In this document: positions 7,023 through 53,218 of the stretch, piece by piece
Numbering within the stretch: position 1 is the first letter of the stretch
How the letters are laid out: each line of letters opens with the position of its first letter
Virus record (IMG/VR): IMGVR_UViG_3300050343_000215
Coordinates: 113,687-177,686 of that record
DNA length: 64,000 bases
DNA from: a virus
Reading direction: 5' to 3' (one strand)
Notes under the pieces: model-generated
What the model was told of the DNA's origin: nothing
Database searches by the model: none
The model's input: only the letters and a program-made list of their open reading frames with translations
Program-made: the position numbers and the translations under genes

Positions 7023-7818
7023 GATACGTTATACCTTCATTAAATCCGAAGTCATCATCTGGTTGTAATAGAGCATCATCTGCTGCGTTAATAGTACCGT
7101 CGTTATTTTTATCTTCTAATGCTTTAGGTGTAACGTTATATTCCATTATCCTAGCATTAGTATCCTTATCGCCAAGAAAAGTAGTAGCAATAGACTTTCT
7201 AATGATGTCATTGGCAGCAACAGGACCATACATAAAGGTCTTGACGCTAAATCTTAGTGTATAATAAATGTATCTTCTGGTAGAGTAATCACCTTCATAA
7301 TCATCAGTAAAATCAATACTTTCTAAGATGATTGGAATATCTCTCTTCTCATTCATTTCAGGAATAAGATCCACAGTCATACTAAATTGTGGTTGAAAGA
7401 ATGGAAGAATTTGCTCAAGAATCTGCAATGCATCATCTTGAGATTTTGAGATTACATTCAACTCAAATCCAATATTATATGGAACAGGAAGATATTGAGT
7501 TTTAGTTGTTGTCGTTTTACCATCACCAACCGCTCTATTTCTCTGAATAGGAGGAACTTTCCTTGTGCTATCATATGAGATACCGGTCATTTCAAATGAC
7601 AATCTAGGAACAGTAATCGTTACCTTCTTGTCAAGATTTGGAGCAGCAGCAAGTCTTGCTAAAAACTTTTGAATGGGACCATATGCCAATGGAACTTTTT
7701 GCTCCATGACATCTTTGCCATTAGCATCTAAAGTTTTTAATTGAATGTTATTAAAAAGCGTACCAAATGTGGTAACTGTCTTCCTAATAATTTTGTGATA
7801 AAAATAATTTCCTAACAT
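7012..7818 (-). CDS. 15: Tail completion / sheath stabiliser gp15
   Basis: Caps the tail and joins it to the neck after the sheath has polymerised. 268 residues, very close to T4 gp15 (272). The start MLGNYFYHKIIRKTVTTFGT and the following LFNNIQL are typical. The middle contains VTITVPRLSFEMTGISYDST and YLPVPYNIGFELNVISKSQD, and later DDYEGDYSTRRYIYYTLRFS, all characteristic of this family. It starts at the same base where gp14 ends (one-base overlap) and overlaps gp16 downstream, so it is part of one late operon. Confidence 0.95.
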   Translation of the reverse strand: MLGNYFYHKIIRKTVTTFGTLFNNIQLKTLDANGKDVMEQKVPLAYGPIQKFLARLAAAPNLDKKVTITVPRLSFEMTGISYDSTRKVPPIQRNRAVGDGKTTTTKTQYLPVPYNIGFELNVISKSQDDALQILEQILPFFQPQFSMTVDLIPEMNEKRDIPIILESIDFTDDYEGDYSTRRYIYYTLRFSVKTFMYGPVAANDIIRKSIATTFLGDKDTNARIMEYNVTPKALEDKNNDGTINAADDALLQPDDDFGFNEGITYHGQ

Positions 7819-8963
7819 TAGAAGCTACCTGTAAAATTACCAAATTCTCCAAACGGATTCCTTTCAGTGAAGTCAAGAATATCATCTGCTTCATCTTCTA
7901 GTTCTCTATTTTCTGAGAACGAATCAGTCATATCAAGAGTGTCAAATGATGAGACTGACCATCTTGCATTAGAATCAGCGCCAACTAATTCTTCGTTGAC
8001 ATTAAATGTCCCATTTGCATATGCAACACTTAATGTTCTAGTGTCCTCGTTCCACTCTGCAACTTTTCCTACAATGTTTGCAGGAGATCCATCAATAACA
8101 ATAGTGGGTGCATAACCAGCAACACTTTCAACATTGCCAAAAACATCATATGTAATGTCGCCATAAACATATGGAGTTGTTGGTGAATTAACTTTAGAGA
8201 CTACACCATTAGTAATCTCTGTTGTTGATGTACCAATCAAAGAATTAGTTGGTGTGAACCAACGTGCTACTGGTGCAGTTTCATACTTACTACCAGCATT
8301 GGTAATAGTAATTTGACCAAGAACTCCATCTACTGCAACTACAGTAGTTGCTGCAGCATTGAATCTTGTTCCTGTAACTTTCTCATCCTGAATCCAATAT
8401 CCAGAACCACCGGCACTGAATACAACGGGGTATACACCAGATTCCATTTCAGTGTTGTCAACAGCAGCAATTCCAGTATCAAAGATACTGTCACCGTACT
8501 CAAAGACTTCACATGTCATGGTATATGTATATAGACTTCCTAACTGATAGAAAGGTTTTTGGTTTTCTACATACTTAATTTCAAATACTGTTTCATTTAA
8601 TGGAAACCAGATAAGGTCACCATCATTAGGTCTTCCGCTGACTATTTTGTTTGTGGAAGTCTCTACAAAATCTTGCCATCTTCTTCTAGATACTGTCAGT
8701 TGAATTTCATCAGTTACACGAAGACCAAATTTAGACAGCATATCTCCATTGCCACCAAACTGCTCAAAGTTTTCAAGATACATCTCAATGAGATAACTAT
8801 CCTTAAACTGTGAGTAGTAGATGTCATTCCATAACTTATCCTCATGAATTTTACGAGGAATATAATAGCAATCCAGACCATACATCTTGATCTGTTCGTC
8901 TACAAGATCCTGAACTAGACCCTGCTCACCCTTTGTTCCTTGTGTGAAGTATAAATTCTTCAT
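7818..8963 (-). CDS. 14: Neck protein gp14
   Basis: Head-closure (neck) protein that with gp13 joins the filled head to the tail. 381 residues against 256 in T4. The N-terminal half is typical: NLYFTQGTKGEQGLVQDLVD, DCYYIPRKI, and LIWFPLNETVFEIKYVENQK. The extra length lies mainly in an internal stretch, about residues 165-290, containing ITITNAGSKYETAPV. This is the same GxxY-type beta motif repeated in gp7, gp8 and the 2526-residue protein of this phage, so it looks like an inserted module. The C-terminus (EADDILDFTERNPFGEFGNF) is the usual gp14 end. It is one base from gp13. Confidence 0.93.
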   Translation of the reverse strand: MKNLYFTQGTKGEQGLVQDLVDEQIKMYGLDCYYIPRKIHEDKLWNDIYYSQFKDSYLIEMYLENFEQFGGNGDMLSKFGLRVTDEIQLTVSRRRWQDFVETSTNKIVSGRPNDGDLIWFPLNETVFEIKYVENQKPFYQLGSLYTYTMTCEVFEYGDSIFDTGIAAVDNTEMESGVYPVVFSAGGSGYWIQDEKVTGTRFNAAATTVVAVDGVLGQITITNAGSKYETAPVARWFTPTNSLIGTSTTEITNGVVSKVNSPTTPYVYGDITYDVFGNVESVAGYAPTIVIDGSPANIVGKVAEWNEDTRTLSVAYANGTFNVNEELVGADSNARWSVSSFDTLDMTDSFSENRELEDEADDILDFTERNPFGEFGNFTGSF

Positions 8964-8964
8964 C

Positions 8965-9759
8965 TTAACCGACCATATCTAGTGGTGGTAACTCTGCTGC
9001 TAATTTAAATTCACCAAGAATAGTTTCAATTTCTTCTTGTGCATCTTCATAGAACTCTCTTCCATTTAGAGTTGTACCACCAGGAAGTGATACGTTCTTA
9101 AATTTAATAAGGTTTTGTCCCCACTGACGTTTGATCAGAGCGGTAAGATATCTCTTTAACCATACATCATTATAAATTTCTGCTGCATTATTAGGATCAA
9201 TCATTCTATAACAGTCAAGAATTAAATGTTGTCCTGCAGTAATATTACCCCAGTCAGTATCAATGTATAATCTATTTTCTCTTTTGTTAAATCTAATTGG
9301 TTTGAAGTTACCAATTACAAAATCAAGAGTTTCAAGATACTGCTTAACCATATAGTAGTTCAAGATTTCCATTGAACCAAAATTATAAAAGTCATTCAAG
9401 AATAACTGGTACTTCATACTAAAAATATTTCCTGATGTCGCTGATGAACTATTATCATAAGCATAGACTTGCGTTACTCCAAGTACATGCTCAGGAACAG
9501 TAATATAGTTATTCTGCTCCTTAAAATCAGTACCAGCAATTGCACTGTTCGCTTTCGCGTCAGTAATCATCTGTTCAGTAATTTCTACCTTTAAAAATGT
9601 TTTGATGCTTCCATCAAAATGACGCTCTTGGAAGAATTGAATAGCATCGTCCATGAGATCCTCAATCTGATCATCATCTACATTAATCTCTAGGACGGGA
9701 AAACCTAATTTCCTTAAGCAGTAGTCAACTAACTCCTGGCGTGTTGAGGGTCGTGCCAT
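8965..9759 (-). CDS. 13: Neck protein gp13
   Basis: Neck protein that binds the portal and recruits gp14 to close the packaged head. 264 residues (T4: 309). The start ARPSTRQELVDYCLRKLGFP is the usual one. The middle has KYQLFLNDFYNFGSMEILNY and RLYIDTDWGN, and the C-terminal part has WLKRYLTALIKRQWGQNL, all typical. It is first in the gp13-14-15-16 string. Its leader consists of a hairpin with a T-tract and an overlapping late promoter, and no Shine-Dalgarno is visible before the ATG. Confidence 0.94.
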   Translation of the reverse strand: MARPSTRQELVDYCLRKLGFPVLEINVDDDQIEDLMDDAIQFFQERHFDGSIKTFLKVEITEQMITDAKANSAIAGTDFKEQNNYITVPEHVLGVTQVYAYDNSSSATSGNIFSMKYQLFLNDFYNFGSMEILNYYMVKQYLETLDFVIGNFKPIRFNKRENRLYIDTDWGNITAGQHLILDCYRMIDPNNAAEIYNDVWLKRYLTALIKRQWGQNLIKFKNVSLPGGTTLNGREFYEDAQEEIETILGEFKLAAELPPLDMVG

Positions 9760-9802: not shown

Positions 9803-10264
9803 CTATTCTATACCTTCTGGAAATCCACTACATTCCACACATTCTTGATCTGGAAGATCTCCAAAATTTTCTGGATTTCTTTCTCGGTATGCAGCATACT
9901 CTTCATCTGTATGAATAACTTCTCCTTCTTCATTCCTAACTAATTCACCCGAAAATTCACCCGAAGAATAATGCCAGCAGACATCTCCCATTTCCTGAAC
10001 TTCTGCTTCAAGTTCTTCATCAAATTCTACTTCATTTAAAAACCAATCTTTTACACGAGTAATATTATCAAATACTTTTACTTTATCCTGAAATTCACAC
10101 CACCACATGAGTTCATCTACTGGCAATTCTGGTTCTGATTCATAATCTTCGGGATTTTTTCCCTCAGGAAGTAATGCTTCAATAACCATATGCACGTCCG
10201 ACCCGTGCTTCTCCTCAATTGACTGAATTACATCATATAGGGGGATATCCGTAACAGAGTTCAT
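9803..10264 (-). CDS. Acidic hypothetical protein
   Basis: 153 residues, strongly acidic (many E and D) with an aromatic core: DELMWWCEFQDKVKVFDNIT and VKDWFLNEVEFDEELEAEVQ. A C-terminal CVECSGFPEG follows. No family recognised. It is divergent from the plus-strand island and probably has its own sigma70-like promoter (-35 TTGACT at 10301-10306, -10 TTTATT at 10278-10283), and a terminator follows it at once. It therefore looks like a separate, early unit rather than part of the neck operon. Acidic small phage proteins often bind host enzymes, but nothing here shows that. Confidence 0.75.
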   Translation of the reverse strand: MNSVTDIPLYDVIQSIEEKHGSDVHMVIEALLPEGKNPEDYESEPELPVDELMWWCEFQDKVKVFDNITRVKDWFLNEVEFDEELEAEVQEMGDVCWHYSSGEFSGELVRNEEGEVIHTDEEYAAYRERNPENFGDLPDQECVECSGFPEGIE

Positions 10265-10306: not shown

Positions 10307-10334
10307 TTGACCTGACTTGAATATGTGTTATAAT
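10307..10334 (+). promoter_or_regulatory. Sigma70 promoter of the plus-strand island
   Basis: -35 TTGACC (10307-10312), 16-base spacer, -10 TATAAT (10329-10334), 23 bases before the ATG at 10358. The -35 abuts the leftward -35 element. Confidence 0.75.
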
Positions 10335-10357: not shown

Positions 10358-10864
10358 ATGAGTCTTCAACTTTGCCTCCTAGAAACTGGAGAAACTATTA
10401 TTGCTGATGTTCGCGAAGCAATTGATCCAGAATCAAATGAATCCCTTGGGTATCTAGTAACTAATCCATTTAGTGTAAAACACATCATTAATAATGTAGT
10501 TAATGTTGAGGAGATGTCAGAAGAAACTAACACTTCTCCTGAAAATGCCGCATCCCTATCATACTCTGTATGGGCACCTTTAGCTCGTCAAAATACCTTT
10601 AATTTTCATACAGATTTTATCCGTGTAATTTATAATCCTGATCAAACTGTTATTGATCAATACACAAATATCCTTGAAAAATGGTTAGAAGAACACACTG
10701 TAGAAGTTGAAACTGATAAACACTCAACTACAATTACACTGGGATCAGACGCAACGCAAGCTGCATTGAGAGAAGAATTAGAGTCTATGAATAATGATAA
10801 AAAAGAAGGTGACTTTAATCCAGAGTCAATGACTGCTGCTGGAGAAGAATCTAATGCAAACTGA
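10358..10864 (+). CDS. Sm-like (LSm-fold) conserved phage protein
   Basis: 168 residues. The N-terminal 50 residues (LQLCLLETGETIIADVREAI, then GYLVTNPFSVKHI) and the later SVWAPLARQNTFNFHTDFIR resemble Sm-like small beta-barrel proteins that recur in cyanophages and other marine phages. In these the first strands carry LLxTGExIIAD and a later strand pair carries WxPxxxxxxF. The C-terminal third is a polar, acidic tail. LSm proteins bind RNA, but RNA binding here is only inferred. It is the first gene of the plus-strand island and overlaps the next gene by 11 bases. No strong ribosome site is seen; the ATG follows an A-rich stretch. Confidence 0.75.
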   Translation: MSLQLCLLETGETIIADVREAIDPESNESLGYLVTNPFSVKHIINNVVNVEEMSEETNTSPENAASLSYSVWAPLARQNTFNFHTDFIRVIYNPDQTVIDQYTNILEKWLEEHTVEVETDKHSTTITLGSDATQAALREELESMNNDKKEGDFNPESMTAAGEESNAN

Positions 10865-11675
10865 ATTAACTCCTGCTCCTGCAATTAAAAAAAGTAAAAT
10901 TACTACTTTTGATACAACACTACTTATGGCGAGTAGACCTCCTGAAATTGAGGAGATGGATAACTGTATTCTTGTTGATAATTTTTTTCATGCATATGAG
11001 AAAATAGAAGAAAACCTCTTAAAATTTCACTCAACAAACTGTCATGAGATTAATGAAATTTTATTTTATGGTGGGAAAAATGTTGAATATTTAGGAACCA
11101 AGGGTATTGTTCAACCTATCCCAAGAGATTTTTCAGTTGAATTTATTAAAACAATTTATGAATATCTTACTGAAAAAGATTATTTAATTCCTAATATTAA
11201 CTCTGATGAGACCAACCTAGTTGATAAAATTATATTTTCAAGTGCTACTGAAGCAACATTATATTATGACGAAATGATTGTAGATAAAGGATTTAATGTT
11301 CCATGTCCTAGTGGTGGTGAATTTACTAGTACAGTGTTCTTATGTGATGATACAGAAGAAAGTAAAATGGGAGTTACTTTCTACGATTTTGTTTTTGAGG
11401 GAAGATCATATTCCTCAGTTGAAGATTTCATGCTTGAGGATGATGATACCCGAGAAAAGATTTTTAAAGTTCTTGGGGAATACAGTCTTGCTTCAGGAGA
11501 ATTAAAACTATTTGAAGAATTTACTGAGTCCGAACACTTTAAACCAACAGAGTATATTGAAGCAAAACAAAATAGAATGATTGCTTATAAAAGCAGTTTT
11601 TTCACTGTTAATAATTTTACTGCAGGTGAAAGGTATACTTTAAATTGCTCATTTAATGCTACTAATGTTGGTTAA
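10854..11675 (+). CDS. Degenerate 2OG-oxygenase-like protein
   Basis: 273 residues, no family recognised with certainty. Its C-terminal half aligns by eye with the next gene: GGEFTSTVFLCDD and MGVTFYDF match SNLYLTD and TSFYRIK, and YTLNCSFNAT matches the final strand. Where the neighbour has the HxD iron ligands this protein has N-V-P (148-150), and where the neighbour has the distal His it has Ser/Phe (YKSSFF). If the fold is shared, the iron site is lost. It may be a pseudo-enzyme partner of the downstream oxygenase, or an unrelated beta-sandwich. It overlaps genes on both sides (11 bases upstream, 1 base downstream, TAATG), so the three are co-translated. Confidence 0.7.
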   Translation: MQTELTPAPAIKKSKITTFDTTLLMASRPPEIEEMDNCILVDNFFHAYEKIEENLLKFHSTNCHEINEILFYGGKNVEYLGTKGIVQPIPRDFSVEFIKTIYEYLTEKDYLIPNINSDETNLVDKIIFSSATEATLYYDEMIVDKGFNVPCPSGGEFTSTVFLCDDTEESKMGVTFYDFVFEGRSYSSVEDFMLEDDDTREKIFKVLGEYSLASGELKLFEEFTESEHFKPTEYIEAKQNRMIAYKSSFFTVNNFTAGERYTLNCSFNATNVG

Positions 11676-12448
11676 TGGATATTAATAATTTTTCTAGATA
11701 TTCATCTGGAGACATAGAATCTTTGATTGAAATTAATCCTGATTCTGAATTTGAATTATGCAGGTTTGAAGGAATTAAATATATCAAAGGTCACAATGTC
11801 TTAAAACGACCAGATGATTTTGCTGAGTTTCTTTCTAAATTTCCTGCTGAAGATAGGAATGTGAGTCTTCAACGAAATCAAGAAACTAAAATTGATAGTT
11901 CAGCTCCAGGTTTTCAGCAATACCTCAAAGAAAATTATTTTGCTAAATTAAATGAACATTTTTTTAAAGTTGGTCATCAGTTAAAATTCCATAGATACCC
12001 TTTAAATAGAGTTAGTTTTGATAACTTTACTAACTGTTGCTATCCTGGAATGAAAGCATATCAAAAAAATTATCTTCCTCACACAGATCGTTTTGGAATT
12101 GCTTCAAATTTATATTTAACTGATCCTGGAACTAAAACATCAACTTCGTTTTATAGAATTAAATGCTCAAGTGGAAATGTATACCACAATGAATTTGAAC
12201 TTAGTCGCGCTCCCAAAGAAGATGCGTTAGAACTTAGAGATAGATATGCTGAGGAAGGTGCTAATGCTGGTTGGGAACCTTGGGTTTTCTTTAGGGGAAA
12301 TAAATTTTATGAATTTTATTTTGAAATTCCAGCAGAATATAATAGTATGAGTATGTACAGAGGAAATGCATGGCATAGTATATGTTATGATGCATCAGAA
12401 AAATCTAAACTACGATATTCTTTTGTTACTGCAATGTTTGCAGAATAA
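11675..12448 (+). CDS. 2OG-Fe(II) oxygenase-like protein (DUF6445-like)
   Basis: 257 residues. The signature of 2-oxoglutarate/iron dioxygenases is visible: H136-x-D138 in NYLPHTDRFG, followed by the strand SNLYLTD and TSFYR, then a distal H234 (NAWHSICYD) and R247 (KLRYSFVTAMF) for 2OG binding. The LYL..TSFYR arrangement resembles the DUF6445-type group found in phages. The substrate is unknown; candidates are virion or host proteins. It is last in the plus-strand island and is followed 4 bases later by a strong terminator. All predicted ligands are present, so it is probably active. Confidence 0.78.
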   Translation: MDINNFSRYSSGDIESLIEINPDSEFELCRFEGIKYIKGHNVLKRPDDFAEFLSKFPAEDRNVSLQRNQETKIDSSAPGFQQYLKENYFAKLNEHFFKVGHQLKFHRYPLNRVSFDNFTNCCYPGMKAYQKNYLPHTDRFGIASNLYLTDPGTKTSTSFYRIKCSSGNVYHNEFELSRAPKEDALELRDRYAEEGANAGWEPWVFFRGNKFYEFYFEIPAEYNSMSMYRGNAWHSICYDASEKSKLRYSFVTAMFAE

Positions 12449-12478
12449 AAAAGGGGGCATATGCCCCCCATTTTTTTG
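12445..12478. terminator. Bidirectional intrinsic terminator
   Basis: A-run, then the perfect palindrome GGGGGCATATGCCCCC (12453-12468), then a T-run. It works on both strands between the converging plus-strand island and the 1899-residue gene. Confidence 0.9.
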
Positions 12479-12494
12479 GTTTTTTATACCAGGA

Positions 12495-15400
12495 TCATGC
12501 CTGAGATTCTTGCCAGGTGACCCTTGCCGACACAGCGAAGGGGTTAGCAGTGCTAACTCCAGTAGCGTCAACGATCTTCGCAACAACTGTGAGGATGTCA
12601 GGTCCGTTGGGGAATGTACCATCTCCACCTAGGATTGAGTTGCCCAGTGCAGAGATCTGACTGAGGTCGTAAGCGGTTGAAGTAGATTCACCAGTACCAC
12701 CACCAGCAGCACGGAAGGAGAGAATCGTTGAACCACCCGCGACAGTTTCGTTAGAAGAGTGTCTAACCAACTGACACAAGGAAGGTTCTTGAACATTCTG
12801 ATATGCGTCAGTACTCAGTCTTCCGTTCAGTTTGAGACTGATTTCAGTCTCATGCGTGGTAAGAATACCAACGGAAGCAAGTTTAAGTTGCATTCTGTTA
12901 ACGATTTCTCTTTCGCCCAGTGCGCCTGTGATTGATGAGTCAACCGAAGGTGCGAGTCTGATTGAGATAAGAGGAATATCCTGAGGAATTGGGTTGTCAG
13001 TTCCAGAAGGAGCACCGATAGACATCGTAGTTCCAGAAGGAACAGTGATACAACCATTAGATCCGCAAAGAGTTCTTTGGATGTTATCAGTGTGATATCT
13101 GTTGAATACAGCGTTAGTTCCTTCAAAGTACTGGATGTATACTTCATAGTAACTAGATCCATTCCTACTTCTAGAGTTAATTGCTCTACCAGTTTGGAAG
13201 TATCCACTCGCGATCGTGTTGTGATACAACAGTGTGTTAGTAGCGAATGCAGATGCGTCAGATTGCTGGAAGAACAGTACGAGGAAGTACTCTCTGTAGT
13301 AATAGCTACCTTGGTATCTTTCACTACGAATAGCAGTATTTGATTGAGTGTTCTTATCAACAGCGGATTCGTTAGTAAACTTCTGGACGTTGCCAGATGC
13401 CGTGAACAAGTACGCTTCGTCATCCTGATACATACCATCCATAATAACTGAAGTACCCCAGTGGAACAGAGTTCCGACATAACTTGGTAGTTCATTATTT
13501 TCAATCTCATAACGTGCAGGCAGGTTACCTGAACGGAAGTAAGATTCAGTCAAGCGGTTGTTGTGCTTGAATTCATGGACATACTTGACGTGACCGTTTT
13601 GATCCTTAAATCCGAAGCGGATCTTACCAGCACCATACCAGGAGTAATCCATGTAGCACATCTGGATCTTGCTGACATCAAGATCAAATCCAGAAGGACC
13701 ATTACCATCTGCTTTATCAACATTCCAGTCGGGTTGACCAACCTTAGTATCAATTGTCTTAGTACAAATAACGTTTTCAGCAGTAACGCCACGATAAGCA
13801 GGTTGAACTGTAACCTGTGTATTGCTGGTAACTTTAACGACTCTGTAAGACATACCGCGAATAACGATCTGCTCACCCTTATTCAGTTCCGAGAGGAACT
13901 TAGTATTTGTACCAGTAACAATGTTATCCTGATTCGTCACACTAACTGTACCAGGAAGCTGAAGAACTGAACTTCTTCTTACACAATTCAGAGTTTGACC
14001 ATTGAATTCATAGAAGAAACCATTCTGATCATCAAACATACCAGCGCGGATGTCACAACCAGACCAGGAAAGAACCTGTGCTTTAGGGAATCCACCAGAA
14101 TTACTTCTAGCAGGTTCAACATCAAGAAGATATTTAAATTCATAATCATTTTGAATGGAGGTTACGTTAGAAGAAATATTCCACGCCTGATCGTCCGATT
14201 CAATAATCTTAATATCAAGTTGATTTGTAAGATTATGTGGTTTTGATGTCGTTACGAGACCTTCAACAATTTCATGGAATACAAGAGTCTCAGAAACAAG
14301 ACTTGCTTCACAGTTGCTGCTGATTCTAAGTGTGGTTGAGTTAATGACCTCAATAACTCTGGTTTGTCCTCCTTCTGGAGTAAGACCAATACCAGAACCA
14401 GTAACTTTCATATCAGGAATAATACCTGAAGTATCAGCAACCGTCAGTTGATCATCACCTTGAGTTCCAGTAGCAGCAGTAGATACTGTAGTACCACGAG
14501 TAGCATATGAAAGATCTAGGACAGGAATCAACGGAATAAAGTTGATCGCGTATGAAGTCTGGATACCTTTACCTGACTGATAACGGAAGTACTTACGAGT
14601 CTGTCTAGAAATTTTAGAGTTGGGTGACTTAGAAGTACCGATTTCCATACCACCATCAAATGGTCTATGGAGATAGAATCCATCAGGACGTACATAGATG
14701 TAGGAAGGAATTAGATAAACTACATTAGTAGCAGTGAAATCAACAGCAGTCTCTACGAGGAGAGTGTTGTCATCTGTAATAGCAGTAATTATTCTGGACT
14801 TAATCGTACCAGGAGTACCACCAGTCACATCAACCAGTTTGATAGTATCACCAACCTTGAAGAATCTTTCAAAGGATGTATCTGTACCAATAATACTTCT
14901 TGAACCAGAAACAGTTTCAATTGTTCCTGCACCAGTAACTTCACCTGAAAGGTTGGAACTTATAAATCTTTGAAGTCCACTTCCAGTACTAGTGAAGGCG
15001 AGAGGAACTGGTGGTTCTGCAGTTGCATCTGCTTCAGTAGCAGCAAGTTTGATGAAGTTGTGGTCAAGTACAATGACATAATAGTCAGTATTATTAGTCA
15101 AACCACTAATATCAGTTCCTCCGTTGTTGTCATAGATGACTCTTGTTCCAGTACCAAAGAAGTGGTTTGGAATGTTGATACGCATGTCAACAATATCAAC
15201 ATCAGTATTACTATTAAATGCTTTTGATGTTGGAGGAATTTTGAATGGAATTGTAACTTCCAATTCAGTCTCACTAATTGCTGTAGTAGTTGTGTATGAA
15301 CCATCAACAACACCGAAATCAGCAGTTGTGTTCTCAAATGTATGAGCACCACTACCACTACTTGTGATATCAATCATTGATCCACCTTGAGTAGCCGACA

Positions 15401-18194
15401 GAGTAAATCTGTTACCACTGATAGGATAGACATAGTAAGAAGTACCATCAACCAGACCAGGGCTACCGGTAGGAGCAACACCAGTTGTGTTATACTTCAG
15501 AAGTTCACCTGCAGAGAACTGGTTGTCTGCGATGTAGATAGAGTTTCTGCTTGGGTTTGTCAGGACAGCAGTAAATGTAGTGGTGCCCGTGGCACCAGCA
15601 AGTCTCATTGGAGATGCACCTGTACTAGACTTAATTCTGAATCTATCGTTGTTGATTCTATCAATATACCATGTTCCGCTACTGGTGGAAGTTCTATTAC
15701 CAGCATTATTATAGTAATAATGAACAGCACCTGTGGATGACAAAACTACACTATCATTGGTATTAAAACCATGATTCTGTTTATAGAAAGAATCATTGGT
15801 AGAAGTATTTCTCTTCAGAAGAGCAATATACTGGTTTGTCTGACCATCTTCATTGACTGAACGGAAATTCCATGTGGGGTCACCGTCATAACCAGATTGG
15901 TAATACCAGTAGTACCACTCATTACCATTCAATCTGAATTGGTAATCACTCTCGTCATAGAGGTAACATGAACTGTTTGTCCAGTATGTTTTGGAGTTTC
16001 TTCCTTGATATCCACCTGAAACATAACCATAGCTATAGTTACCATTGTTATTACCGTTAACACCTTGGTTCTCATGGTCGGTCAGGAAGTCATAAGTTCC
16101 TTGCCACTGTGTATTACCGAGGGGAAGAGTTTCGTGATGATAACCATAGGTTCTCATCTCATAACCTCTACGATAGTAATCCCACTTCATGAGATATCGT
16201 TCAGAGTGGTTGGAACTAATTCCATCACCATAACGTGTGGTGCAGAAGAATGCGGCAACATCCCAAGGAGTTCTTCCTAAACCGTAAGTACCATCAACAC
16301 TAGCAAAATCATACCCAGAATAGGTGTTTCTATTTGATCTATAGTATGTACGATAGTAAACATAGAAATCTCTTCTAGGACTATATTCAGACTCAATATT
16401 ATAAACTAGACCAAGGTTATGTGAACCGTGAGCAAAAGTACCACCTGAAGAGAGATTAAGTCTATAATTCATTCTTTGCGAATGATTTAGATAGAAAGAG
16501 TTATCGTCAATTCTTTCAATATAATAAACCTGCATTCTGGAAAGACCGCCGATGGGAAGGTCGCCAGGATTTGGGTAGTAAAGAACAGCAGCACGGTTAT
16601 GGAAACCATGACTAGTCATCGTAATGGAATCACTTCCATAGTTGATGTCAGTCTCATCAAAACGTTTCGTATATGTAGACTCATAATTATAAGGAACTCT
16701 CTGAGTAGGATCTTCAGCAGTAACAATGTTTGCCTGTTCAACGTGGTCAATAGTTGGTCTTCCATCAGGAGCAGTTACTGTAGAATCAGGAACTTCCAGA
16801 ACCTTAGGAGAAACTGTGTTAACAAAGTAGAAGTTTGTATTGTCAGCAAAACCATGTTCTGATCTGGTTGTCAGAAGAACTTTAGTATTTGTTCCAAATA
16901 CAATATTATAAGAAGAACCCATACCAGCGTGATTCTGGCATCTATAATAAAGAGTATTATAAGATGGTTCTGCTGATGTTATCAGAATTCTGGTATATGC
17001 ACCAGCAGTTCCAGGTGTACCATTCGCATATACATAGGTACTATGAACATTACCACCAGTTGCAGCATCAGCAAACTCAAGTGGATGATTATTATTACTT
17101 ACATCAGATTGATCAAAGATATAAATTGAATTTCTGATTAAAGTAAAGTCTGGTTCAAGATAGCAAGTTTCAACGGTATTGCCAATAAAATATCTATTTC
17201 CACTGTCTACTACACCATTGTTTGCGGTAGACTCAATAGTATATTCTACAGCAGCACCTGTAATAGTAAGAGGTTCATCTACAGCAAAGGCACCAAGTTC
17301 AATATCAATTACAGTGATGGTTGAACCATCAACTTTAGCAATTTTACCAATAGCACTTGGAGTTGTTGCTGTTGCTCCGACAAGAACATCAATATCAAAA
17401 GCAGTTGTTGCCGTGAGTTCAATTGTAGGTTTTACAATAACAGTTTTTCTAAACAAGTCAGAGGTAATACCTTTAGTTGAACTCAGATTAACCTGAGAAC
17501 CTTGGAAGAATTTACCAGGAATGATAGAAGTATATGTACCTTGAAGATTCTTGGTTTCTGGTTGGTTCGCTCTAGCCTTGTATGTAAAAGTTTCGTTTGA
17601 AGGAACTGATTGAATCAGATATGCACCTTCAGCAGAGAGTGAAGAAAGACCAGTTACTGTGATAGGAACACCAGTAGCAAGACCATGTTCAAATTCACAA
17701 GTTACAGTAATAATTTCACTATCCTTAGTTGAAGTTACGCCCGAGATAAAGGGAATAGTAGTATCAGCAGTAGACGCATAGAACGAAGGAATATTGTTAA
17801 TGGTCTGAATAGTTTCCCACTTAGAAGCTTGGGGACCATACTCAAAGTCGGTGTCAACTAAGTTCTCTGGGTTTGAAACTCTGAATTTAGAAACAGCATC
17901 AACATAAGTCTCTGAGGGCTCAATGTTAACGTAATCTTTTTCATAGAAAATCTGCAGTTCATCAGTGCTCTGCATAGTAGAGCAGTTAAAATTCAATACA
18001 AAGGTAGTTTCCTCTGCAACTTTGTCATATGTTCTAGATCCTAGACCTAAAAAAGCATCAGCAAAATTGTAGATATTGACATTATCTGTTACATTCGTTA
18101 CGAGAAGCAATCGCTTAGCAGGAATGTTGCCCTTGACCTTGACAGTGTTGGTCGTTGGCTCAAAAGTGTAATAAGTAATTAATTTCTTTGCCAT
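12495..18194 (-). CDS. Giant virion structural protein (VrlC-like) with cupredoxin-like motif
   Basis: 1899 residues starting MAKKLITYYTFEPTTNTVKV, preceded by an AAAGGA ribosome site. It is long, polar and beta-rich, with repeated HGLxxG/HGFxxx units (for example EFEHGLATGVPITVTGL and QNHGFNTNDSVVLSS) alternating with YYVxxxxxxxFxL strands, the pattern of large cyanophage tail-surface proteins annotated as VrlC-like. Around residues 360-425 there is a cupredoxin-like segment: NNHPLEF, then YYRCQNHAGMGSSYN, where H, C, H and M could bind copper. Two Tyr/Ser/Gly-rich stretches occur in the centre. The C-terminal region ends SARVTWQESQA. Probably a tail or baseplate surface component; host binding is inferred only from composition and place. 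Confidence 0.8.
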   Translation of the reverse strand: MAKKLITYYTFEPTTNTVKVKGNIPAKRLLLVTNVTDNVNIYNFADAFLGLGSRTYDKVAEETTFVLNFNCSTMQSTDELQIFYEKDYVNIEPSETYVDAVSKFRVSNPENLVDTDFEYGPQASKWETIQTINNIPSFYASTADTTIPFISGVTSTKDSEIITVTCEFEHGLATGVPITVTGLSSLSAEGAYLIQSVPSNETFTYKARANQPETKNLQGTYTSIIPGKFFQGSQVNLSSTKGITSDLFRKTVIVKPTIELTATTAFDIDVLVGATATTPSAIGKIAKVDGSTITVIDIELGAFAVDEPLTITGAAVEYTIESTANNGVVDSGNRYFIGNTVETCYLEPDFTLIRNSIYIFDQSDVSNNNHPLEFADAATGGNVHSTYVYANGTPGTAGAYTRILITSAEPSYNTLYYRCQNHAGMGSSYNIVFGTNTKVLLTTRSEHGFADNTNFYFVNTVSPKVLEVPDSTVTAPDGRPTIDHVEQANIVTAEDPTQRVPYNYESTYTKRFDETDINYGSDSITMTSHGFHNRAAVLYYPNPGDLPIGGLSRMQVYYIERIDDNSFYLNHSQRMNYRLNLSSGGTFAHGSHNLGLVYNIESEYSPRRDFYVYYRTYYRSNRNTYSGYDFASVDGTYGLGRTPWDVAAFFCTTRYGDGISSNHSERYLMKWDYYRRGYEMRTYGYHHETLPLGNTQWQGTYDFLTDHENQGVNGNNNGNYSYGYVSGGYQGRNSKTYWTNSSCYLYDESDYQFRLNGNEWYYWYYQSGYDGDPTWNFRSVNEDGQTNQYIALLKRNTSTNDSFYKQNHGFNTNDSVVLSSTGAVHYYYNNAGNRTSTSSGTWYIDRINNDRFRIKSSTGASPMRLAGATGTTTFTAVLTNPSRNSIYIADNQFSAGELLKYNTTGVAPTGSPGLVDGTSYYVYPISGNRFTLSATQGGSMIDITSSGSGAHTFENTTADFGVVDGSYTTTTAISETELEVTIPFKIPPTSKAFNSNTDVDIVDMRINIPNHFFGTGTRVIYDNNGGTDISGLTNNTDYYVIVLDHNFIKLAATEADATAEPPVPLAFTSTGSGLQRFISSNLSGEVTGAGTIETVSGSRSIIGTDTSFERFFKVGDTIKLVDVTGGTPGTIKSRIITAITDDNTLLVETAVDFTATNVVYLIPSYIYVRPDGFYLHRPFDGGMEIGTSKSPNSKISRQTRKYFRYQSGKGIQTSYAINFIPLIPVLDLSYATRGTTVSTAATGTQGDDQLTVADTSGIIPDMKVTGSGIGLTPEGGQTRVIEVINSTTLRISSNCEASLVSETLVFHEIVEGLVTTSKPHNLTNQLDIKIIESDDQAWNISSNVTSIQNDYEFKYLLDVEPARSNSGGFPKAQVLSWSGCDIRAGMFDDQNGFFYEFNGQTLNCVRRSSVLQLPGTVSVTNQDNIVTGTNTKFLSELNKGEQIVIRGMSYRVVKVTSNTQVTVQPAYRGVTAENVICTKTIDTKVGQPDWNVDKADGNGPSGFDLDVSKIQMCYMDYSWYGAGKIRFGFKDQNGHVKYVHEFKHNNRLTESYFRSGNLPARYEIENNELPSYVGTLFHWGTSVIMDGMYQDDEAYLFTASGNVQKFTNESAVDKNTQSNTAIRSERYQGSYYYREYFLVLFFQQSDASAFATNTLLYHNTIASGYFQTGRAINSRSRNGSSYYEVYIQYFEGTNAVFNRYHTDNIQRTLCGSNGCITVPSGTTMSIGAPSGTDNPIPQDIPLISIRLAPSVDSSITGALGEREIVNRMQLKLASVGILTTHETEISLKLNGRLSTDAYQNVQEPSLCQLVRHSSNETVAGGSTILSFRAAGGGTGESTSTAYDLSQISALGNSILGGDGTFPNGPDILTVVAKIVDATGVSTANPFAVSARVTWQESQA

Positions 18195-27370: not shown

Positions 27371-27399
27371 ATTATAGTACAATTTATTTAGTGTGTCAA
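27371..27399 (-). promoter_or_regulatory. Consensus sigma70 promoter
   Basis: Minus strand TTGACA (27394-27399), 17-base spacer, TATAAT (27371-27376). Perfect in both boxes, 24 bases upstream of the ATG at 27347, and overlapping the stop of the 299-residue gene. Confidence 0.85.
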
Positions 27400-28295
27400 G
27401 ACAGGTCCCATCCTGTTTGACCATTAGCATTATCTTTGAGCAAATAACCATCTACCATAAAACCTTCAATGTAAGTTCTTCCACCACTACCATTATTCTG
27501 GATTGTTATCTGAGTAAGATTTCCTGCTTGCTCAAATCTATGTGATGATCCTGTACTAGATGTATAAGTTGTTCCGTCTATAGTGACAGTACAAGTTGAA
27601 TTATATCCATCTTCTGAAAATACTCTAACGAAATTAGTTACAGTAATACTAAGAGTAAGGGTGCATAAAACTTGGTTTCCACCTGTTCTTGCCCTTGGCG
27701 AAGTTTGCAAATATCCATTAAAAGCATTTGAAGCAGCTTGATCAAAACCTCCAGTTAAACTATTACTCCATACGGTTCCATCATTAGGACTAGTGGAAGT
27801 CATGAATCTTTCTCCTGCTTGCAGAAGAGTTCCACAAGCACTTACACCTCCAGGAGAACTACCATCTGCTGGCCATGAACCAGAAGTTTGGTTATGCATT
27901 ACACCACGCCATGCTTCAGTCCAATCACTATTATTATCACTACGCTCAACTTTATATGAGATAGATCTAATACTACCAGAAAATACTGAATCTACAAATA
28001 AATGTGTGAAGGAAATTGCCGAACCATGATCATATGTCTCTGTTGTGTTTCCACCAATAATAGTTCCACTGTCACTACAGTTTGAACTAGTATATGTTTT
28101 AAACCATGTAATATTTGATGAACTATCACTAGTAGAAAATCCAAAACGCGCAGCTCTAGGAGCATGGTCATTATAAGGATTGGATCCACCAGTGGCACCA
28201 GTGGTCAATCTCCAATAACGATGTGAGCTAGTACCAAAATCACCACCACCACCAGCAGCAGCACCACCATAACCAAGTAACATTTGTTGCATCAT
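27396..28295 (-). CDS. Tail-fibre-associated adhesin-like protein
   Basis: 299 residues. It starts MMQQMLLGYGGAAAGGGGDF, a Gly-rich cyanophage-type leader, then HRYWRLTTGATGGSNPYNDH, which recalls the start of discoidin (F5/8 type C)-like sugar-binding domains. The middle has ISYKVERSDNNSDWTEAWRG; the C-terminal part is a beta domain with FVRVFSEDGYNSTCTVTIDG and ITIQNNGSGGRTYIEGF, seen in many phage adhesins. It shares one base with the tail-fibre gene upstream, so it is coupled to it. Probably a receptor-binding or fibre-tip protein; carbohydrate binding is inferred. Confidence 0.75.
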   Translation of the reverse strand: MMQQMLLGYGGAAAGGGGDFGTSSHRYWRLTTGATGGSNPYNDHAPRAARFGFSTSDSSSNITWFKTYTSSNCSDSGTIIGGNTTETYDHGSAISFTHLFVDSVFSGSIRSISYKVERSDNNSDWTEAWRGVMHNQTSGSWPADGSSPGGVSACGTLLQAGERFMTSTSPNDGTVWSNSLTGGFDQAASNAFNGYLQTSPRARTGGNQVLCTLTLSITVTNFVRVFSEDGYNSTCTVTIDGTTYTSSTGSSHRFEQAGNLTQITIQNNGSGGRTYIEGFMVDGYLLKDNANGQTGWDLS

Positions 28296-30295
28296 TAGCT
28301 CAGACCTCCACCAGAAATATAGGCGACATTTGTTGCAATAAAGACAAGAGTTGCTACTCCTCTAGCTGCTAATGTTTTATCACTATCCGCCCCATCAGCG
28401 GTATTATATAATGTAAATGAACTTCGTGTGATTGTCATACTAGTTGCAGAATTATTCATAATAGTAATCATATCACCAGCTGAAACTGTACTAATGTCAG
28501 CAACAGTTATATTTCCGCCAGTTCTAACAACCATTTTCCCAATATCACTTCCAATCAAAGTATAGTCGCTAGTGATTGGATTGTTGAGTCCAAGTCTTCT
28601 CAGTGGACCGAGTGAGTCACTGATTGAGCCAGCAAATATGGCGCTGCCGTCCTCATTCAGGTCAATTGTGTATGCAGTATCTTCCTTGTTTCTAATAAAT
28701 ACACCGCTACCAATACCGCCTTTGACAAGCACATTAGCTTTAACAGTCAGATCACCCTCAAATGTGGCGGTGCCATATGCACCCTGTAGGTCAATTTTAG
28801 TCGTAGTTCCATCACCTAAAATCAACCTTGAGGATGAAGTCTCTTTGTATAACCCTCCCAGGTTTGTGCTGCCAGCATTGACCTGGAATGCATAGGTATC
28901 GTCGGTAGGGTTGTTTAGAATAGTACCCGCAAATGTGCCTGTGCCGTTTACACTAAGACCAATATTAGTTTCCCACAATCCACTGGTATTATTGTAAGTA
29001 ATCGTCTTATCAGTAGCTCCTTTCAGTGTAATACCACCACCATCTGCTGTGGTATCAGAAGGAGATGATACATTACCAAGTTCAATGTTCTTATCTTCTA
29101 CGGTTAAAGTAGTTGAGTCAATGGTGGTCGTAGTTCCTGAAATATCAACGTTACCTACAACATAAAGATCTTTCCAGATAACAACTCTTTCATTTCCAGT
29201 ATCAGTTCTAAATTGCAAGTAATCAGTAGTACTTCCATTTTTTCTAAAACTTAAAGAATTTTGTAAATTACTTGGAAAGTAAATGTAATTTTCTATTGCA
29301 TTTGAAAATCGTAAATGGTTTTTTGCAACTATTTTAGTATTAACTGTTGTTGTGCCGCTACCACTAGCATTTCCAATTATAACATCATTATTATTGATTA
29401 AAAGATTAAATGTATTTGCTGATGAAAGAAGTTCCCCACCATTAACCGCAATCTTACCAGAGCAAGCAAGGTCATCACTGAGAATATTGAAGTTAGTATT
29501 TCCACCTCCACCAGAAACACCCATGTTGATGGTAGTTGCTGCACCAAACGCATTAATCTGTGTTGCTACTGTATTGAAAAGAGCTTGTGTAGTCTCTGAT
29601 CCAACAATCGTAGGATTTCTAAGTGTCAGAGTTCCTGTAGTTGCACCAAGACGAATGTCAGTACCAGCACCAAATGCCTCTACAGTTGTTGCATAATCAT
29701 CAAATAAATCAACTGTAGCTTGAGTACTAGGAACTCTAACGTCACCTGAGTCTACCTGAAGATATCCTGTAAATGTTGAGTTTTCATCAACAGTCAGTGT
29801 ATCAATGCTAGCAGTACCATCAATCCAAATATTATTCCACTGTTTTGTTGCAGAACCTAAGTTATAGTTTGCAGTACTATCTGGAACAATACTAGATGTA
29901 AGTTCGGCATTAAATACGATGTTATCAGTATTAAGATCACCAAATGTTAGTGTGCCACCTGATGCAGCACCAGCTCTAAATGTAATATCGCCGTCTACTT
30001 CTAAATCACCACTAATTGATAAACTACTAGTAAGACCAATCTTACTTGCATTTACCTTGTAAAAACCTTGTCCAGAATCCCAAAATAAACTTGGCGATGC
30101 AAACGTACCAGGATCCATCCCATGGGTCTGGTTGATTAAATCAACATCACCATTGACAATTTCATTGATGCCATTTACGAGCACATTCGTTGGCGTTAAT
30201 AACGTTGCTGCATCACCAACATCAGTACCGATGAGGTTAACCATCTGACGCTGTTGCTCAAACGTAAAAGTTGTAAGGACTTCTCTAATTGCCAT
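28295..30295 (-). CDS. Tail fibre protein
   Basis: 666 residues. The start AIREVLTTFTFEQQRQMVNL is usual for cyanophage fibres. From about residue 90 it contains the fibre repeat LEVDGDITFRAG, GTLTFGDLNTDNIVFNAELT, SIVPDSTANYNLGSATKQW, NNIWIDGTASIDTL, a triple-beta shaft pattern found in host-range fibres. The C-terminal 90 residues form a cap-like domain (DYTLIGSDIGKMVVRTGGNI, then ITIMNNSATSMTITRS). No intramolecular chaperone is visible. Its ATG overlaps the 67-residue gene upstream by 11 bases, and it is coupled to the adhesin downstream. Confidence 0.85.
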   Translation of the reverse strand: MAIREVLTTFTFEQQRQMVNLIGTDVGDAATLLTPTNVLVNGINEIVNGDVDLINQTHGMDPGTFASPSLFWDSGQGFYKVNASKIGLTSSLSISGDLEVDGDITFRAGAASGGTLTFGDLNTDNIVFNAELTSSIVPDSTANYNLGSATKQWNNIWIDGTASIDTLTVDENSTFTGYLQVDSGDVRVPSTQATVDLFDDYATTVEAFGAGTDIRLGATTGTLTLRNPTIVGSETTQALFNTVATQINAFGAATTINMGVSGGGGNTNFNILSDDLACSGKIAVNGGELLSSANTFNLLINNNDVIIGNASGSGTTTVNTKIVAKNHLRFSNAIENYIYFPSNLQNSLSFRKNGSTTDYLQFRTDTGNERVVIWKDLYVVGNVDISGTTTTIDSTTLTVEDKNIELGNVSSPSDTTADGGGITLKGATDKTITYNNTSGLWETNIGLSVNGTGTFAGTILNNPTDDTYAFQVNAGSTNLGGLYKETSSSRLILGDGTTTKIDLQGAYGTATFEGDLTVKANVLVKGGIGSGVFIRNKEDTAYTIDLNEDGSAIFAGSISDSLGPLRRLGLNNPITSDYTLIGSDIGKMVVRTGGNITVADISTVSAGDMITIMNNSATSMTITRSSFTLYNTADGADSDKTLAARGVATLVFIATNVAYISGGGLS

Positions 30296-52621: not shown

Positions 52622-53218
52622 TCAACCTAAAGATAAATTGAATGCTATTGAGATTCTATTCTCGGAATTATTGTTAATATTTACTTTATGCAACATGTCT
52701 GAAGGGAAAAAAACCATTTCTCCAGAAACTGCAGTTAAGTCCCATCCAACAGTATATCTATACTGTTCTCTTACTGAGTCAGTTACCTTACTAAGCCATT
52801 TAAAATTAGAATATGCGGAATTATTAATAACAGTTAAATCTCCAGACTCGGGAGGAGCATCTATCCAAAAAACACCAGCAATATCGCAATCTGGATGAAT
52901 ATGACATTCATTAAAAGAATCTTTAGCATTGACATTAATCCAAGCACCTTTTAATAAAAGTTTATAACCTGGATTGAAAACATTGGATAATGCTTTCTTT
53001 GAGTGCTGCATCACAAATCTTGCATACTTAGAAAATTCTGATTTTTCAAAAGTATATACATCAGACTGCCATCCTCCAACATTTGATTTTTTGACACCCT
53101 CATTTCGCTCCATCTCACAATAAATTGCTTTAATTAAGGGTTCTTTTATACCATCAAATTCAGGTTTAGTATCATGTTTTACAATTAGTGACGGAAAAAT
53201 TGATATAACCTCAGTCAT
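52622..53218 (-). CDS. 2OG-Fe(II) oxygenase (2OG-FeII_Oxy_5-like)
   Basis: 198 residues. The start TEVISIFPSLIVKHD and the block KGAWINVNAKDSFNECHIHP, then DCDIAGVFWIDAPPESGDLT, are those of a phage/bacterial family of 2-oxoglutarate oxygenases (PF13759-like). Iron ligands are in H106-I-H108-P-D110 and H177 (PSDMLHKV), with R188 (ENRISIAFNL) for 2OG. The substrate is unknown. It is the last gene of the five-gene overlapping cluster behind the sigma70-like promoter at 54075, and stands just before gp25. This is the second likely active member of this fold in the window. Confidence 0.88.
   Translation of the reverse strand: MTEVISIFPSLIVKHDTKPEFDGIKEPLIKAIYCEMERNEGVKKSNVGGWQSDVYTFEKSEFSKYARFVMQHSKKALSNVFNPGYKLLLKGAWINVNAKDSFNECHIHPDCDIAGVFWIDAPPESGDLTVINNSAYSNFKWLSKVTDSVREQYRYTVGWDLTAVSGEMVFFPSDMLHKVNINNNSENRISIAFNLSLG

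Follow-up and report, generated by a model that had tools for sequence, protein, structure and literature searches.

What do three overlapping plus-strand genes act upon when they interrupt a minus-strand structural region and encode an oxygenase next to a relative that seems to lack the iron site? The window, i.e. the whole stretch of 64,000 nucleotides analysed here, corresponds to bases 113,687-177,686 of a virus record totalling 177,686 bases. Visual inspection of the ORF list revealed photosystem genes in this record, and its T4-type neck genes are most similar, at about 40-44% identity, to those of isolated Synechococcus myoviruses; we therefore assign the virus to the T4-like cyanophages. 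Such phages encode from 1-5 up to 24 2OG-Fe(II) oxygenases each, for which roles in host metabolism or DNA repair have been proposed (PMC3037559, PMC9964418, PMC9602691). At least 10 further 2OG-Fe(II)-oxygenase-like proteins, some of them scoring under the Pfam cut-off, are encoded elsewhere by the phage studied here, six of them inside the first 12 kb of the record.

The genes follow each other in the order gp14, gp13, a 153-aa ORF, the trio and the gene of a 1899-aa virion protein (Table 1). As a preliminary description of this DNA had stated, the three ORFs of the trio overlap and oppose the minus-strand structural genes: the first and middle genes share 11 nt, the middle and last genes 1 nt, in a TAATG stop/start.

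Table 1. Features of the island, its neighbours and the other oxygenase-like genes of the same phage. Positions are those of the window unless preceded by a contig label; L024, L026, L027 and L029 are parts of the same virus record (G000) outside the window.
Feature	Position	Strand	Remarks
gp14	7818-8963	-	
gp13 / head-tail adaptor Ad2	8965-9759	-	PHROG_211 E 2e-46; 99% identical in G001
Acidic 153-aa protein	9803..10264	-	Family unassigned; 43 acidic / 9 basic residues
Late-type motif ACTAAATAAAA	10274..10284	+	About 83 nt 5' of first ATG
Sigma70-type promoter (putative)	10307..10334	+	TTGACC-16-TATAAT with TG extension
Sm-like protein, 168 aa, acidic	10358..10864	+	PHROG_431 E 4e-19; DUF6561 weak
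Putative pseudo-oxygenase, 273 aa	10854..11675	+	DUF6445/PHROG_1644 homologue without HxD iron site; R260 kept
2OG-Fe(II) oxygenase-like protein, 257 aa	11675..12448	+	DUF6445/PHROG_1644; HxD...H...R complete
Bidirectional intrinsic terminator	12453..12469	.	Between oxygenase and virion gene
1899-aa virion structural protein	12495..18194	-	PHROG_5838 E 3e-173; convergent with trio; proposed substrate
Other 2OG-oxygenase-like, within the window	52625-53218		
Other 2OG-oxygenase-like, contig L024	150-890, 4660-5217, 5744-6394, 7007-7612, 8562-9044, 11243-11770		
Other 2OG-oxygenase-like, further contigs	L026:3145-3900; L027:6987-7592; L029:1797-2354		

A predicted oxygenase and its iron-less homologue

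The last protein of the trio scored 30.7 bits against Pfam DUF6445 (PF20043; curated cut-off 24) and matched PHROG_1644 with an E value of 2.1e-19. The complete HxD...H...R set that had been noticed in it corresponds to H136, D138, H234 and R247, which are invariant across all close relatives covering these positions; H136, D138 and H234 are also invariant among PHROG_1644 relatives at 18-26% identity. With the iron triad and the 2OG-binding arginine of the 2OG-Fe(II) oxygenase superfamily both in place, 11675-12448 is predicted to encode an enzyme. The PHROG_1644 relatives matched prolyl-4-hydroxylase-like phage oxygenases by profile (88.7%, E 2.6e-6), with the iron ligands aligned, and these phage oxygenases matched solved prolyl hydroxylases weakly (E 0.03-0.1). 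AlphaFold2 models, computed from alignments of 5 and 7 rows only, had a mean pLDDT of 38 for the last and 30 for the middle protein, too low for use. A hit to an S-RIM50 'head protein' proved to be due to chance and was taken out of the profile. Our literature search for DUF6445 returned nothing.

PHROG_1644 is labelled 'minor coat protein', and the gene of one relative, S-H9-1 gp105, is located two genes away from that of the major head protein, which raises the question whether the oxygenase and its homologue are themselves minor components of the virion. We consider this improbable, given that iron ligands kept at such low identity indicate an enzyme and that the relatives are found clustered with 2OG oxygenases and halogenases.

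Between the middle and the last protein BLASTP detected no similarity, and an initial comparison of profiles from shallow alignments was unconvincing. An HMM built from 14 oxygenases gave the middle protein a score of 26 bits (E 8e-7), whereas none of 2000 shuffled sequences exceeded 11.5 bits; when the HMM was built without the window's own lineage, the middle protein still obtained 19 bits against 9.4 for shuffles. By hhalign, a deeper oxygenase alignment matched residues 37-265 of the middle protein with a probability of 93.9% (E 1.5e-7). Against DUF6445 (PF20043) it scored 14.9 bits, below the cut-off of 24, and it is not filed as a member. By these profile comparisons, the middle gene is a true homologue of the oxygenase family.

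In the HMM alignment, P-H-T-D of the oxygenase stands opposite P150-C151-P152-S153 of the middle protein (P150 corresponding to P135), its relatives having P-[C/S]-P-[S/A]. Thus C/S-P-S/A replaces H-x-D in 5/5 lineages and the iron triad is broken, while the position of the distal histidine is occupied by threonine (T251) in three lineages and by histidine in two, and R260, the 2OG-binding arginine, is invariant. The loss of the iron ligands had been correctly recognised, with a different identification of the replacing residues: the N-V-P named for this role stands just before C151-P152-S153. Because the surrounding N148-V-P-x-P-x-G-G-E156 is invariant in the middle family, the region of the lost site looks like remodelling and not decay. 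A second invariant motif is T61-N-C-H-E65, and neither of the two occurs in the active family. The dN/dS of the middle gene is about 0.27 (window versus lineage G001), and this purifying selection marks it as a maintained, if so far predicted, pseudoenzyme.

Its private motifs and its large distance from the active family would also suit a paralogue that has taken up a new job, such as another metal site or plain peptide binding, and that does not touch the active enzyme. We give this explanation little credence, as the middle gene adjoins the active one in 5/5 covered lineages, through the TAATG overlap in two and gaps of 1-5 nt in the remaining ones, and was never found without it. The preliminary description had named independent occurrence of the two genes in relatives as a result that would speak against a pair; this applies to one side of the pair, the active family occurring without the dead one in other cyanophages. 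Neither a tblastn search of phage isolates with the middle protein nor a profile search of 12 isolate genomes for the middle family found any member, the positive control of the latter, phages carrying the middle family, being detected. Taken together, homology, residue conservation and purifying selection back the active/inactive oxygenase pair that had been proposed. A comparable arrangement is that of the OGFOD1/Tpa1/Ofd1 prolyl hydroxylases, in which one active double-stranded beta-helix domain and one lacking the iron site jointly act on a protein substrate; there both domains belong to one chain, whereas the window has two genes, with both folds predicted from profiles only.

Acidic companions and expression signals

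The first gene of the trio had been described as Sm-like and possibly RNA-binding. The first protein alone had no match in the PDB; a profile including its paralogues (the A5 profile) reached PDB 3BY7, an Sm-like protein of putative cyanophage origin, with an E value of 1.7e-7, and the Sm-like assignment is therefore supported through the paralogues. With phmmer, the first protein matched (E 1.5e-11) a paralogue of this genome that adjoins the DNA polymerase. Next to this polymerase, gp43, two Sm-like paralogues are found (G000 95851-96406; L028:17855-18407), as in P-HM2, and the shorter of the two matches 3BY7 directly. Compared with 3BY7, the first protein is longer, with an insertion and an acidic tail. 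Binding of RNA is doubtful because the protein is strongly acidic (31 acidic versus 9 basic residues), and a protein-binding ring seems more likely.

The 153-aa ORF is transcribed divergently from the trio, and its product, also acidic, had no significant match in PHROG or Pfam.

Upstream of the trio, the extended -10 of the sigma70-type promoter, TGTGTTATAAT, is invariant in the alignment of 5 lineages, its -35 is not, and the late-type motif ACTAAATAAAA is likewise invariant in all five. CTAAATA is found upstream of genes in this phage 13 times versus 1.8 expected, and ATAAATA 30 times versus 3.1 expected; both resemble the late promoter of T4-type phages. The label 'early' formerly given to the island is thus only half of the picture. 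The sigma70-type promoter suggests some early expression at least, the late-type motif would permit co-expression with the virion genes, and since both are conserved the island may be transcribed both early and late, as judged from promoter motifs.

Exchange of the island together with a virion gene

The trio was found in five lineages, counting the window's own (L001/L002): G001 (L004), G002 (L006/L007), G004 (L003) and G005 (L008, which is cut in the last gene). Contig G003 (L005), which begins inside the last gene, is outside this count. Conservation of the trio as a unit had been suggested as a check, and the same gene order is present in 5/5 covered lineages. The 153-aa ORF always flanks the trio, and on the other side the 1899-aa gene follows in every contig long enough to include it. 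Throughout the five lineages the four small genes have the same order and orientation, although their identity to the window is only about 53-66%.

Comparison with G001 revealed an abrupt change of divergence. The two genomes are 96-100% identical at 4.5-9.8 kb and mostly 95-100% at 18.1-27 kb and 30-36 kb (single windows of the comparison down to 91-94%); in between, DNA identity drops to about 71-75% for the island and to 67-90% for the virion gene. The exchanged block, about 9.8-18.1 kb, therefore comprises the 153-aa gene, the trio and the 1899-aa gene. Its left border falls between gp13, which is conserved, and the 153-aa ORF, whose product is 56-59% identical between the window and G001 while the adjoining gp13 is 99% identical; its right border falls in the first codons of the virion gene. 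Outside the block, synonymous divergence (dS) amounts to 0.03-0.10; the four small genes have values of 1.0-1.2, and the virion gene has 0.57. Because dS jumps from 0.03-0.10 to about 1 at the border of the block, fast evolution in place was rejected as the cause: the divergence is due to recombinational replacement. In a second pair, G004/G005, gp13-gp15 are 97-99% identical and the trio 57-61%; G005 does not cover the virion gene, and this pair repeats only the exchange of the island. Mis-assembly is unlikely, since the allele of the window recurs at 99.9-100% identity in two other contigs and since the G004/G005 pair shows an island exchange of its own.

One may object that genes are simply exchanged at a variable site here and that the island genes and the virion protein are functionally unconnected, because a second locus of G001 (27.4-30.3 kb) was exchanged without oxygenases. 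We regard this explanation as highly improbable: the order and orientation of the four small genes are retained across the five lineages in spite of their low identity.

The second exchanged locus itself (27396-30295) is adhesin-like by position and composition. Its 299-aa Gly-rich ORF (27396-28295) had no counterpart in the related contigs reaching the locus, including the near-identical G001, and the 666-aa gene next to it is only 78% identical in G001.

Conserved and variable blocks form a mosaic in the 1899-aa protein, the variable ones including residues 251-400, 1251-1300 and 1651-1700, and this variability suggests a host-recognition protein. A variable stretch rich in Tyr, Gly, Asn and Arg was also seen at residues of about 600-760. 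In Sf-CH11, a 2OG oxygenase converges on the 3' end of a homologue of the 1899-aa gene. In S-BM3, a related virion protein of 2088 aa abuts gp13 with no island between them, so related virion proteins do not need the island; relatives of the 1899-aa gene elsewhere, in S-RIM32 and S-PM2, have no adjoining oxygenase.

Oxygenases beside tail genes and the possible substrate

We inspected the gp13 region of eight isolates, selected as near relatives or as hits rather than at random. In S-RIM44, Sf-FP1, S-RSM4, S-CAM4 and S-WAM2, oxygenase genes separate gp13 from tail-fibre or large structural genes, often accompanied by a PHROG_1644 member; in S-RIM32 the oxygenase at this junction is a 97-aa ORF, and no oxygenase gene was found at the junction of ACG-2014e and S-BM3. 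In syn9/Syn10 and S-CREM1, oxygenase clusters with one or two tryptophan halogenases adjoin tail-fibre or collagen-like genes. Two tandem tryptophan halogenase genes head the cluster of Syn10 and syn9 beside tail-fibre assembly genes (L030:2264-5369, L031:2264-5369); the halogenase VirX1 comes from Syn10. Halogenation may be part of the oxidative tailoring of tail proteins.

The PHROG_1644/DUF6445 members of isolates (syn9 gp46, S-RIM44 gp161, S-CREM1 ORF73, S-ShM2 041) share the invariant HxD...H with the last gene of the trio, and several stand beside tail-fibre genes and oxygenases. They stand alone or in the company of other 2OG oxygenases, halogenases and JmjC proteins, and none of these isolates was found to have a catalytically inactive counterpart resembling the middle gene, unlike the window. 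Similarly, the clusters of S-RIM44, Sf-FP1, S-RSM4 and syn9/Syn10 resemble the island in that oxidative tailoring genes adjoin tail-fibre genes, several of them at the same junction upstream of gp13 and others away from gp13. The window island differs from them in consisting of one active oxygenase and a putative pseudoenzyme, in being inverted relative to the structural genes and in having its own promoter and terminator. Variable islands in which tail-fibre or host-recognition genes accompany Fe(II)-dependent oxygenases were also described in marine metaviromes by Mizuno et al., who filed eight such oxygenases under host recognition (PMC3909814); the passages of that study on these islands give gene counts, with neither an enzyme/pseudoenzyme pair nor a matched exchange of enzyme and virion protein. 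That oxygenases accompany variable tail regions is already known, and what is new here is the enzyme/pseudoenzyme pair, its Sm-like companion and their co-exchange with one virion protein. A literature search for prolyl-hydroxylated phage virions found none.

The preliminary description had considered modification of host or virion proteins. The swap of trio and adjacent 1899-aa gene as one block, and the placement of related islands beside tail-fibre genes, narrow this choice towards the virion. Our preferred reading, to which we assign a probability a little below one half (about 0.45), is that the island serves to mature or modify the adjacent 1899-aa protein, its presumed substrate. The oxygenase would hydroxylate side chains of this protein during synthesis or assembly; the pseudo-oxygenase would pair with it as partner or adaptor, presenting or recognising the substrate; and the acidic Sm-like ring and the 153-aa protein would serve as assembly or chaperone factors. 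Variants of enzyme and substrate would then have to match, which would explain why the trio and the virion gene move together. We counted in favour of such a modification system the block exchange in G001, the island exchange in G004/G005, the oxygenases at the tail-fibre/gp13 junction, the convergence in Sf-CH11, the islands of PMC3909814, the late-type motif and the prolyl-4-hydroxylase-like link. Against it we counted S-BM3 with no island, S-RIM32 and S-PM2 with no oxygenase beside the related gene, the second exchanged locus with no oxygenase, the sigma70-type promoter, and the fact that block exchange also arises when genes merely adjoin a host-range hotspot.

This last point leads to the strongest rival, which we nevertheless hold to be unlikely: the oxygenases may be auxiliary metabolic genes that target host proteins, nucleic acid or metabolism, through the 2-oxoglutarate level, nitrogen signalling or repair, and that happen to lie at a junction which is a recombination hotspot. 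Published proposals of altered 2OG / NtcA signalling and DNA repair (PMC3037559) and of reprogrammed host metabolism (PMC9964418, PMC9602691) agree with it, as do the conserved sigma70-type extended -10 and the at least 10 other oxygenase-like proteins elsewhere in this genome. It accounts less well for the repeated placement of oxygenases between tail-fibre genes and gp13, for block edges that coincide with the island plus the virion gene and for the conserved late-type motif. Within the preferred reading, we propose more tentatively that the enzyme-pseudoenzyme pair and its ring-forming Sm-like partner might form a dedicated post-translational modifier, co-inherited with its host-recognition or virion substrate as an exchangeable cassette.

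In conclusion, if modification of the virion protein is true, this phage would possess a hydroxylation system acting on virions and diversifying together with the structure that it modifies. The co-exchange of island and virion protein gives the 2OG oxygenases of cyanophages a concrete and testable candidate substrate and ties them to parts of the phage that probably come into contact with the host. With an iron-less twin maintained next to an active oxygenase, the island would also represent a natural two-gene enzyme/pseudoenzyme pair in this superfamily.
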